DNA from: Bradyrhizobium diazoefficiens
GTDB lineage: Bacteria; Pseudomonadota; Alphaproteobacteria; Rhizobiales; Xanthobacteraceae
Direction of reading: 5' to 3'
DNA: 64,000 bases
Assembly: GCF_016616235.1 (NCBI RefSeq)
Contig: NZ_CP067100.1
Span: 4,337,001-4,401,000 of the forward strand
Under the pieces are notes generated by a model, which had not been told where the DNA came from, ran no database searches, and saw nothing but the letters and a program-made list of their open reading frames with translations. Position numbers and translations under genes: made by a program. Of the stretch, positions 53,253 through 55,839 are shown in pieces (position 1 is the stretch's first letter; every line of letters begins with the position of its first letter).

Positions 53253-53468
53253 TCACGGCATCCTCAGCCTTCGATACAGTTCGAGCCAGCGCCGCTCGCG
53301 CCCCGTCAGCGGCTGCCCCTCGAACGACCACGCCGGATGCCCCTCCTCGTCGAGCGGCGCCGTGGCATCCAGCCGTTCGAACTCCGCAAGCTCCTCCGGC
53401 GTCGGACGAGCAACAGCCGCTATCGCCACGGATGCGCGACGACCGGCCTCGTGCGATCCCTTCGGCAT
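53253..53468 (-). CDS. Hypothetical protein (71 aa)
   Basis: The ORF starts at ATG 53468, overlapping the stop of the upstream membrane-protein gene (TGATG), which suggests coupled translation. The product is soluble and charged, with TPEELAEFERLDATAPLDEE and an Arg-rich end RERRWLELYRRLRMP. I do not recognise a family. Its likely job is tied to the small membrane protein before it. Confidence 0.55.
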   Translation of the reverse strand: MPKGSHEAGRRASVAIAAVARPTPEELAEFERLDATAPLDEEGHPAWSFEGQPLTGRERRWLELYRRLRMP

Positions 53469-53764
53469 CACGCAATCCCTGACCGGCGCGGCAAATACCG
53501 GGTCGCGTTCGGATCGCCGTCCCGCCGATTGCCAGCGTCTTCGCGCAACGCACCGATCAGCCTGATGATGTTCACGGGAATCAGCGCGCCATGGAGGATC
53601 GCGATCGGTGCAAGATGAAGCGCGACGGCATAGGTGAGGAAGGCGACATTACTACAGAGCGCGACCAGCCGCAGCGGCACCATGCGGCGCATGTAGAAGG
53701 TCAGGAACACCAGCGACGAGGCGATGTAGCCAGCCACTTCCACCCACCGCACGGCAGACCTCAT
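53468..53764 (-). CDS. Small membrane protein, CBU_0592-like
   Basis: The 98-residue protein has three hydrophobic segments (VEVAGYIASSLVFLTFYM, LRLVALCSNVAFLTYAVAL, LAPIAILHGALIPVNIIRL), the layout I associate with the CBU_0592 type and with the membrane part of some cyclic-nucleotide-binding proteins. The start at ATG 53764 is chosen; ATG 53785 is possible. One of four related palindromes lies 81 nt upstream, just after the luxR stop, so it may be a regulon member as well as being read from luxR. Confidence 0.65.
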   Translation of the reverse strand: MRSAVRWVEVAGYIASSLVFLTFYMRRMVPLRLVALCSNVAFLTYAVALHLAPIAILHGALIPVNIIRLIGALREDAGNRRDGDPNATRYLPRRSGIA

Positions 53765-53845
53765 TGCGATTTCATCCGGCCGCATCGGGCACGAGCGGCG
53801 CGGACTTGCTTCGGCACGGAATTTAGCGGATCGCGATATCCGCCG

Positions 53846-53867
53846 TCTTCACCCGGGCGGGTGAGGC
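53846..53867. promoter_or_regulatory. LuxR-type palindrome, copy a
   Basis: Arms TCTTCACCCG and CGGGTGAGGC around GG; 8 of 10 pairs match. It is 81 nt upstream of the small membrane protein start (53764). Confidence 0.6.
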
Positions 53868-53868
53868 A

Positions 53869-55008
53869 TCACTGTTCCTGGTCCGCTTCCCCGATCCGCA
53901 CGCTGCCAATCGATGCGATCAGCCCGGCGAGTTCTGCCTGCCGTCCCGTCGCAGTCTTGGCGAAGACGCGGCGCAGATGCGTCTTGATGGTGTTGGGAGA
54001 CAGCTTCAGCGATTGCGCGGTCTCCAGGACGGTGTTGCCGGAGGACGCCGCGAGCGCCACCCGCGCCTCGGCGTGGGTTAGGCCGTAGGCGTCCATGATC
54101 TGCCCGAGCGGGATCGAGCGCCGCTTGGCTGGATCGACGACGAACAGCAGCACGGCGGCATCCTTGACGCCGGCATCCGAGAGCCGCCCGAGATCCTTGC
54201 TCCGGATCGCGGAGACGAGGATGGTCAGAAGGCGGCCGTCGAGCTGGCGCGGCAAGCTCATGGTGCCGCCAGCAGCCCCCTGCAGCGCGGAGCGGATCAG
54301 CTCATTCAGCCGCTGCGAATGCGCCGACGAATGGGTCCCGACAGACTGGTGTAGCCGCAGCACGCCTTCCTCCGCCATGCGGCGGGCGGCGGCATTGACG
54401 AACAGCACCCGCGCCTTGCGATCGAGCACGGCGATGCCATCAGCAAGCCGATCCAGGACGTCGAATGCTGCTTGCTGCATGGCGAGGTAGCCGTCGATCC
54501 GAAACCCGAGCGTCACCGACCTGCACAGATGCGGCGACAACCATTCCAAAAGCCGCTGCTCGTCGGGATCGAACATGCCCCGACGCGCGCTGCGACACAT
54601 GTTGAACGCGGCGCGAAAGTCGTCGCGCGCCGCCAGCGCGATCATTCCGTTGTGGGCGATCTCCTGCGGCCGCAACACCTCATCAAAGAACGCGGACCGC
54701 TGAAGCTCCCCGAGCGAGACCGCTTCATCCGACAGCACCAGCCGTCCTGTCGGCTGGCTTTCCATGTAACGCGACCACGGATTCTGCATATGCCGCTCCT
54801 GGTAGGCGCGGTTGCACTCTTCGTTCAGGCGACCGTTGAAATCGAAGTAAATCCGTTGCGCGGTGTAGGACTGACCGAACAGGATGCCGCCCTCACTATG
54901 CGTGAGATCGGCGACCGCCGTGAGCGCATGCGGCCACAGATCGTTATCGGCCGCGGCGTCGTAGATCAGGTCGAGAATCTTCTCGATCTTGTCACTGGAG
55001 AAATTCAC
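53869..55008 (-). CDS. LuxR family transcriptional regulator
   Basis: The 379-residue protein starts at GTG 55008 with AGGGAG six nt upstream. The N-terminal ~200 residues are a sensor part of unknown fold (KILDLIYDAAADNDLWPHAL). A PAS-like part follows around ADGIAVLDRKARVLFVNAAA. A C-terminal LuxR HTH carries LTHAEARVALAASSGNTVLE and LSPNTIKTHLRRVFAKT. This type is common in Bradyrhizobium, often with unknown signals. A perfect 22-bp palindrome 92 nt upstream suggests autoregulation. Frames starting further upstream (to 55221) read through this element and are rejected. Confidence 0.88.
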   Translation of the reverse strand: MNFSSDKIEKILDLIYDAAADNDLWPHALTAVADLTHSEGGILFGQSYTAQRIYFDFNGRLNEECNRAYQERHMQNPWSRYMESQPTGRLVLSDEAVSLGELQRSAFFDEVLRPQEIAHNGMIALAARDDFRAAFNMCRSARRGMFDPDEQRLLEWLSPHLCRSVTLGFRIDGYLAMQQAAFDVLDRLADGIAVLDRKARVLFVNAAARRMAEEGVLRLHQSVGTHSSAHSQRLNELIRSALQGAAGGTMSLPRQLDGRLLTILVSAIRSKDLGRLSDAGVKDAAVLLFVVDPAKRRSIPLGQIMDAYGLTHAEARVALAASSGNTVLETAQSLKLSPNTIKTHLRRVFAKTATGRQAELAGLIASIGSVRIGEADQEQ

Positions 55009-55100
55009 GGCACTCTCCCTGCCTGAGGCTGCCGACAGCCGACGGCCGTCCGCGCAATCTAGGGCGGTATCATGATGATACGGCGACTCGCGGCAGCGAG

Positions 55101-55122
55101 GCCTCACCCGACCGGGTGAGGC
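55101..55122. promoter_or_regulatory. LuxR-type palindrome, copy b (perfect)
   Basis: GCCTCACCCG and CGGGTGAGGC are perfectly complementary 10-nt arms around AC. It lies 92 nt upstream of the luxR start (55008). Confidence 0.75.
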
Positions 55123-55221
55123 AGGGTTGATGTCGGTCAAATATCCGTTTTCAATCTCCTTTCGACGGCGACATCCCTGCTCATCACGCTGGTCGGTTGT
55201 CCGCTCTAAGCACATATTCAA

Positions 55222-55488
55222 TCAAAAGTTGTGACCGTCGTGATCGCTGCTCGTATTCTGCGGGCTCGGCGGCATCGCTTTCACATTCACACCGGCTGTC
55301 AGGTCGTTACGAACCGTCCGCGACGTCTGTCTGTCGTACAGCGAGAAACCGATCAGCAGCGCGGCGAAGACCATGAAGTCGATGACATAGGACGCGCGCG
55401 CCCAACGTCGGTAGGTCTGACGATCTTCTTCCGTAGGCGCGGACGCTGGTCTCGATGAATGCCTACTGCGCATGGCAAGTCTGGTCAT
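55222..55488 (-). CDS. Small membrane protein (88 aa)
   Basis: The ORF starts at ATG 55488 with an excellent GGGAGG 7 nt upstream. The product has a basic N-terminal half (RLAMRSRHSSRPASAPTEED), one helix (ASYVIDFMVFAALLIGFSLY) and a polar tail. I do not recognise a family. It is divergent from the autotransporter gene. Copy d of the palindrome lies 112 nt upstream. Confidence 0.7.
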   Translation of the reverse strand: MTRLAMRSRHSSRPASAPTEEDRQTYRRWARASYVIDFMVFAALLIGFSLYDRQTSRTVRNDLTAGVNVKAMPPSPQNTSSDHDGHNF

Positions 55489-55600
55489 AGTGGAACCTCC
55501 CGCACGTCCGGATGCGGGCATGCATCCAGTTGCGATCGAGATCTCCGGCAAGCCCCGACCGGGATCACACCTCGGCAATACGTCAAGCTGAGATCACGCG

Positions 55601-55622
55601 TCATCATCCAGGCGGGTGAGAC
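55601..55622. promoter_or_regulatory. LuxR-type palindrome, copy d (weak)
   Basis: The right arm CGGGTGAGAC matches the consensus at 9 of 10 positions, the left arm TCATCATCCA at only 6; centre GG. It is 112 nt upstream of the small membrane protein start (55488). Confidence 0.5.
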
Positions 55623-55726
55623 GGGCGTACGACGTGTGCACTTCTTCTTTGCGCACCGTTCTCGTCCTCTTGCGAGCCAGTGCTGCCGGTGTGCTGTGCG
55701 CGCCACGGTTGCCGCGAAGTCGTGCC

Positions 55727-55748
55727 GTCTCACCCGGGTGGGCGACGC
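55727..55748. promoter_or_regulatory. LuxR-type palindrome, copy c
   Basis: The left arm GTCTCACCCG matches at 9 of 10 positions, the right arm TGGGCGACGC at 7; centre GG. It is 91 nt upstream of the autotransporter start (55840). Confidence 0.55.
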
Positions 55749-55839
55749 GGCCTCTGCAACCGTTCGGTATTCACATGCGCAAACGTGTTCACACGATTCG
55801 AAACAGCTCTTGCCTGACCTCAAGACATTGGAATGAGCA

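Follow-up and report, generated by a model that had tools for sequence, protein, structure and literature searches.

The lux box of LuxR at the luxI promoter and the TraR box belong to the class II promoters of the LuxR-type quorum-sensing activators, and class II activation by LuxR-type proteins combined with autoregulation is an arrangement of a known kind. In a 64,000-nucleotide stretch of DNA from Bradyrhizobium diazoefficiens (the window, to which all coordinates refer unless the genome is named) we describe a regulator gene, here called luxR, together with a set of palindromes that precede it and its neighbours. The protein resembles the LuxR and TraR activators in its GerE helix-turn-helix (HTH), in a short palindrome near -42.5 in the place of the -35 element, and in autoregulation, which is here predicted; it differs from them in its extra PAS-like domain, in the operator sequence and in giving no Autoind_bind match.

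Three other groups of described regulators invite comparison. The VqmA-type PAS-GerE proteins of Vibrio and phage share the order of a PAS-like domain followed by an HTH, but the VqmA chains matched are 215-228 residues long, and LuxR has a further N-terminal sensor domain. The BagY/FevT proteins are of similar length (profile 367) and match weakly over LuxR residues 99-363. Response regulators of the NarL/FixJ type have the GerE HTH in common with LuxR, which carries sensor-like domains instead of a receiver. The genes of the locus are:

53253..53471, minus strand: 72-aa open reading frame (ORF) from the ORF list; overlaps the CBU-like gene at the 3' end of the latter
53468..53764, minus strand: gene for a CBU_0592-like or Imp-YgjV-like small membrane protein of 98 aa, predicted target (PF10688 at 20.7 bits, under the 23.5 cut-off)
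53869..55008, minus strand: luxR, 379 aa, GTG start, predicted activator with a GerE HTH, a PAS-like domain and an autoinducer-domain-like/GAF-like N-terminal domain
55222..55488, minus strand: gene for an 88-aa small membrane protein, predicted target, with homologues beside luxR in L016, L018, L021 and L027
55840..58611, plus strand: gene for a 923-aa autotransporter, predicted target (PF03797 beta-domain, 155.9 bits)

The LuxR protein and its class

The GerE HTH (PF00196) was found at 25.7 bits against a cut-off of 23.5 over residues 311-360 of the translated stretch, which places the protein in the LuxR/GerE family. Its middle part gave weak PAS matches below cut-off and its N-terminal domain no Pfam match. 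An AlphaFold2 model built with 22 sequences (mean pLDDT 82.7, pTM 0.55) has three domains, and when it was submitted to Foldseek it matched phytochromes and VqmA (6ide, 7dwm, 6ugl), the ligand-binding domain of VqsR (5xhx) and CviR (3qp1), with TM scores over the target of 0.75 and 0.57. From their lengths and their order of strands and helices, the VqsR and CviR matches are taken to cover the N-terminal part of the modelled protein. No Pfam match to Autoind_bind was obtained at E 0.001, so that the likeness to the AHL receptors is one of fold and not of sequence; nor was a luxI gene seen, by eye, in the ORF list around luxR. No receiver domain was matched, which sets the protein apart from the NarL/FixJ group, and its 26.5 bits against NCBIfam NF041232 lie so far under the cut-off of 700 that LuxR is not a member of BagY/FevT. 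In the 15 rows listed, plasmid-borne relatives bear the bare label “helix-turn-helix transcriptional regulator” or none. In the database records compared, the regulator, its operator and its regulon go without a specific name.

Palindromes and their core

A preliminary description, made from the sequence alone, had reported four related palindromes, and these were borne out on re-reading the window: TCTTCACCCGGGCGGGTGAGGC at 53846, GCCTCACCCGACCGGGTGAGGC at 55101, TCATCATCCAGGCGGGTGAGAC at 55601 and GTCTCACCCGGGTGGGCGACGC at 55727. The palindrome at 55101 is perfect, with arms of 10 bp. The start codons likewise lie at the stated distances of 81, 92, 112 and 91 nt from the palindromes, and three of the four palindromes have a GG centre as read on the plus strand. 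The distance to the start codon, described as similar at each site, varies, and the constant is an interval of 22-23 nt to a -10-like hexamer. The unit conserved among the palindromes is a 16-bp core, TCACCC-N4-GGGTGA, which is exact at 53849-53864 and 55104-55119 and has one mismatch at 55604-55619 and 55730-55745. Neither the outer GCC/GGC nor the GG centre is conserved in the aligned sites of relatives, and the latter was ruled out as a feature of the motif, the relatives having AT, AC, GC, GT and others in its place. The candidate operator cores and predicted -10 hexamers are:

53820..53825, minus strand: predicted -10, TAAATT, lying 23 nt beyond core 1 (CBU-like gene)
53849..53864, minus strand: core 1, TCACCCGCCCGGGTGA on the minus strand, exact, upstream of the CBU_0592-like gene (palindrome 53846-53867 of the preliminary description)
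55075..55080, minus strand: predicted -10, TATCAT, lying 23 nt beyond core 2 (luxR)
55104..55119, minus strand: core 2, exact, in the perfect palindrome upstream of luxR (first described as 55101-55122)
55575..55580, minus strand: predicted -10, TATTGC, lying 23 nt beyond core 3 (88-aa gene)
55604..55619, minus strand: core 3, TCACCCGCCTGGATGA, one mismatch, upstream of the 88-aa gene
55730..55745, plus strand: core 4, TCACCCGGGTGGGCGA, one mismatch, upstream of the autotransporter gene
55768..55773, plus strand: predicted -10, TATTCA, lying 22 nt beyond core 4 (autotransporter gene)

When as many as three mismatches were allowed, the full 22-mer matched twice in the window where 0.01 matches were expected, and none of 100 shuffles reached two. 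The whole genome (one contig of 7,668,734 bp) contains only four exact cores: two at the luxR locus, one upstream of a paralogue, luxR2 (3502541), and one at 1458780. Random scatter of the motif, named at the outset as an observation that would count against a regulon, is therefore not what was found, three of the four exact cores in 7.67 Mb lying at two luxR-family genes. Cores within one mismatch number 22 in the genome, four of them inside 1.9 kb of the luxR locus; the Poisson expectation for such a stretch is 0.005, and a rough correction for all windows brings the estimate to approximately 3e-7. On neither side of the core at 1458780 (L001) does TA occur 21-24 nt away, and for want of the -10 spacing this core was set aside as a further operator.

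Promoter geometry

At all four sites a -10-like hexamer starting with TA follows the core by 22-23 nt when the sequence is read towards the gene. If this hexamer is the -10 element, the centre of the core would fall near -42.5/-43.5, and the core would span about -50 to -35. Judged by eye, the aligned promoters of five gene classes contain no TTGACA-like -35. A palindrome centred near -42, followed by a predicted -10 and accompanied by a poor -35, is the geometry of a class II activator.

The spacing was counted over oriented sites with no more than one mismatch lying upstream of genes of the luxR family and of CBU-like, 88-aa, autotransporter and TSUP genes. The choice of sites (at most one mismatch, 40-260 nt from the start codon and nearest to 95 nt) was fixed before TA was counted; the 95-nt rule matters for L028 and L019, where the best match would otherwise be the site on the autotransporter side. 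Seven near-identical downstream stretches were dropped by ungapped comparison, reducing 47 sites to 40, a set which still holds a few close relatives such as L035 beside L029. TA was present at +22/+23 in 36 of these 40 sites (43/47 before the reduction), that is at 5/5 autotransporter, 6/6 TSUP, 5/6 CBU-like, 5/5 88-aa and 15/18 luxR-family sites. The background at other offsets is 1.7% per offset, and no other offset exceeded 6/40. The four sites without the spacing are those of paralogues in L020 and L021, of the CBU-like gene in L022 and of luxR in L023. The corresponding binomial value of 3e-49 is overstated because the orthologues are related and not independent; five unrelated downstream genes and the paralogues agree on the spacing. 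As a control within the same genome, 18 other sites with at most one mismatch were read in both directions, and TA at 21-24 nt occurred only at luxR2 and at 5489978.

The last of these sites (L005, G000:C1:5489978-5489993) has a one-mismatch core with TA at +22 and precedes a LysE-like reading frame. The homology of this frame is apparently split over two frames, and it is possibly a further target that has decayed.

The site in relatives of luxR

Twenty-one of the named loci (L016-L036) carry a luxR of at least 55% identity. Of the 13 at 62% identity or more, 12 have the core before luxR with at most one mismatch, L021 being the exception; the putative operator thus precedes the regulator's own gene, as autoregulation entails, in 12 of 13 such relatives. 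In the group at 55-61% identity (L029-L036) it stands directly upstream of luxR in none of the eight loci, and in six of them it is found instead upstream of the gene preceding luxR, which we name TSUP (TauE/SafE-like) from its sequence. In the remaining two, the core of L032 is exact but lacks the spacing, and L033 has none.

At 28-30% identity, members from Neorhizobium vignae and N. galegae (L037, L038) have an exact core upstream, and those from Rhizobium sp. (L039) and from plasmid pRL9 of R. leguminosarum (L188) a core with one mismatch; TA is at +22/+23 in all four (+23 in L188). None of the 27 order-level members L108-L134 (25-31% identity) has the core within one mismatch upstream, and the N. 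galegae plasmid member L187 has none upstream either. The TCACCC-N4-GGGTGA operator, as we read these sequences, is a feature of part of the luxR family. The question of whether the motif follows luxR, put to the loci of relatives and to homologues of the targets, can be answered in the affirmative in that it tracks the regulator, though not universally. Likewise, its conservation upstream of orthologues extends from luxR itself to the homologues of the CBU-like, autotransporter and 88-aa genes that stand beside luxR.

Predicted target genes

The CBU-like gene was compared at 30 loci from a larger list of matches, with a luxR-family gene sought in the 1.5 kb flanks. All six loci beside a full luxR-family gene have the site, and none of the 24 loci without such a gene has it. 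Five of the six sites are exact with TA at +23, among them those of L142-L145, each upstream of the CBU-like gene and beside a luxR-family gene; the sixth, in L146, has two mismatches and TA at +24. One of the site-free loci, L148, has a 56-residue HTH-like match nearby. The 72-aa ORF, which has no Pfam hit, is probably co-transcribed with the CBU-like gene; tblastn matches to it closely follow luxR in 5 of the 25 relatives examined (L016, L017, L018, L020 and L028).

The 923-aa protein has the C-terminal beta-domain of a classical autotransporter (the PF03797 match), while its PATR match of 22.6 bits falls under the cut-off of 27. It had been termed an adhesin, and no domain found in it points to attachment. 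Thirty of many more autotransporter matches were compared by scanning the whole oriented loci and seeking luxR in the 1.5 kb flanks: the site was present in 3/3 loci with luxR and in 0/27 without. The asymmetric right half GGGCGA is also found upstream of the autotransporter orthologues beside luxR in L017, L018, L019, L028 and L107. In a similar manner the four homologues of the 88-aa gene beside luxR keep the right half GGATGATGAC upstream; the 88-aa protein has no hit in Pfam or NCBIfam.

Genome-wide occurrence of core and -10

Core and spacing were joined into a composite pattern (TCACCCN4GGGTGA-N22/23-TANNNT), with the reversed pattern as control. In the 7.67 Mb of its own genome the composite has three matches, before luxR, the CBU-like gene and luxR2, and the control none. 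Across 297 genomes of the order there are seven matches, including these three, against zero for the control; among the others, that in G085 precedes a sigma-32-like gene and that in G218 adjoins a 23% luxR-family match.

In 117 genomes of the genus the composite occurs 29 times, in 20 genomes, and the control again not at all. It is present in 13 of the 16 genomes with a luxR orthologue (E 1e-60 or better) versus 7 of the 101 without (Fisher p 5.8e-10), a test that partly repeats the named loci since some of the genomes are the same assemblies. The 29 matches lie before luxR (6), CBU-like (4), TSUP (7), luxR2-type (2) and Bug/TctC-receptor-like (3) genes, with 7 other or unclear; one TSUP assignment (L216) is by direct match and the other six are by a position about 1.2 kb upstream of luxR. 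Among the seven orthologue-free genomes with the composite, a luxR2-like gene adjoins the site in G327 and a 25% luxR-family match was obtained in G383; the other five have no luxR-family match within 1.5 kb. The Bug/TctC-receptor-like genes preceded by the composite are at L196, L198 and L217, all in genomes of the genus other than the present one, whose luxR2 also adjoins such a gene (L105:10612-11580).

The luxR2 paralogue and a sister subfamily

The only other luxR-family gene of the genome at E 1e-4 or better is luxR2 (3501219-3502334; 31% identity, E 1.7e-27), which has the exact core at 3502541 upstream and a recognition helix resembling that of luxR (SPNTVKTHARQVF versus SPNTIKTHLRRVF). 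A sister subfamily of Bradyrhizobium paralogues has instead the recognition helix AETT[VA]KTHLHR, and upstream of its genes the TCACCC palindrome is absent and the palindrome TCCTCCGATCGGAGGA is present. The sister composite (TCCTCCGATCGGAGGA followed by TANNNT at +21/22) occurs once each in 16 of the 117 genomes, with no match for the control, and all 16 matches, counted as composites and not as subfamily genes, precede a gene of the AETT[VA]KTHLHR subfamily. In fifteen cases the gene is 26-62 nt away; for L223, with the reading frame adopted, the interval is 201 nt.

A different helix is thus paired with a different half-site at a nearly constant position relative to the predicted -10. This pairing, which is drawn from two subfamilies, is the strongest evidence, albeit indirect, suggesting recognition of the palindrome by the LuxR-type protein itself. 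A third palindrome, GGCGTCAYCCGAAAGTATGACGCC, lies upstream of luxR-family genes with the helix ENTLKTHLNRIF in L125, L126 and L131; no TA follows it at the usual spacing, and it fits the pattern of helix and operator poorly. Among the distant relatives L108-L134 no second clear palindrome rule emerged beyond the AETTVKTH group.

We would give even odds to a broader proposition, under which LuxR is one of a large group of Hyphomicrobiales proteins, LuxR-type one-component switches that activate themselves; each subfamily would have a 16-bp palindrome of its own near -42.5, and helix and operator would change together (SPNTIKTH with TCACCC-N4-GGGTGA; AETTVKTH with TCCTCCG-N2-CGGAGGA). Were this so, one might see in the family a natural code from helix to operator, its common logic being bistable self-activation.

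Predicted regulation and alternatives

We put at roughly 0.85 the probability that the palindromes are operators of the LuxR protein encoded at 53869-55008, acting as a class II activator of its own gene and its neighbours. A signal would reach either the N-terminal (autoinducer-domain/GAF-like) domain or the PAS-like domain, and a LuxR dimer would bind TCACCC-N4-GGGTGA through its C-terminal GerE HTH. The site, centred some 42.5-43.5 bp before the predicted start of transcription, would then replace the missing -35, LuxR recruiting RNA polymerase. In this manner LuxR would switch on its own gene, a positive feedback, as well as the genes for the autotransporter and the 88-aa membrane protein, and the CBU-like gene together with the 72-aa ORF that overlaps it. 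It had been proposed from the outset that LuxR binds these sites and controls its own gene, the autotransporter and two small membrane proteins; the rarity of the core, its co-conservation with the regulator and the -10 spacing lend support to that proposal, and it is from such sequence features that we infer binding by LuxR, activation rather than repression, and control by a signal. The neighbours found in relatives (TSUP, LysE, Bug/TctC receptor, CBU-like) are partly transport-related, and our guess is that this would fit the sensing of a small metabolite.

LuxR might bind the same sites and repress, the palindrome overlapping the -35 region and blocking RNA polymerase in a negative autoregulation. 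Autorepression is common among HTH regulators, and a core spanning about -50 to -35 occupies a place that repressors can also use. Nevertheless we consider repression unlikely: the promoters of the five gene classes have no -35 recognisable by eye and hence look weak unaided, and the fixed spacing to the -10 suits class II activators whereas a repressor site need not keep it. The sites might also belong to a different regulator, luxR2 or an unrelated protein, with luxR as just one of its targets. Having its own core and a similar helix, luxR2 could quite possibly share sites with LuxR through cross-binding of both proteins; however, the composite tracks the luxR orthologue across the 117 genomes (13/16 versus 7/101), and an unrelated regulator would not predict that the sister subfamily has another helix and another palindrome at its own genes. 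Ownership by another regulator is consequently very improbable.

We attach least credence to the palindromes being RNA or DNA hairpins (terminators, attenuators or REP-like repeats) and not operators, and have rejected the terminator and repeat-element readings in view of the rarity of the core, the fixed -10 spacing and its occurrence on both strands. The arms are admittedly G+C-rich, and the site at 53846 lies 1-2 nt past the luxR stop codon, where a terminator could stand. Yet the genome has just four exact cores, the core precedes genes on both strands at a fixed distance from a -10-like hexamer, and the autotransporter and 88-aa sites keep asymmetric mismatches in relatives, contrary to what is expected of hairpins.

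Activation by LuxR through these operators would provide a precise operator and promoter map for a poorly labelled regulator, linked to surface and membrane genes of plant-associated rhizobia. The two subfamilies, which differ in helix and in palindrome and place the latter at nearly the same position, would make a compact system for the evolution of DNA specificity in LuxR-type proteins, and a palindrome with the -10 spacing before a regulator's own gene could serve to assign operators to uncharacterised members of the family.

Other observations at related loci

The luxR orthologue of Bradyrhizobium campsiandrae (L027:5329-6822) falls into two overlapping pieces in different frames and may be broken, the surrounding sites being still present. 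At L028:6183-6619 the N-terminus of the autotransporter seems to lie near the C-terminal end of a luxR-family gene, as if the intervening DNA had been deleted. In L018 and L019 the autotransporter is followed by a second luxR-family gene. On plasmid pRL9 of R. leguminosarum (L188) the luxR-family gene with its own site is two genes from rapA2, which is annotated there as a calcium-binding lectin.
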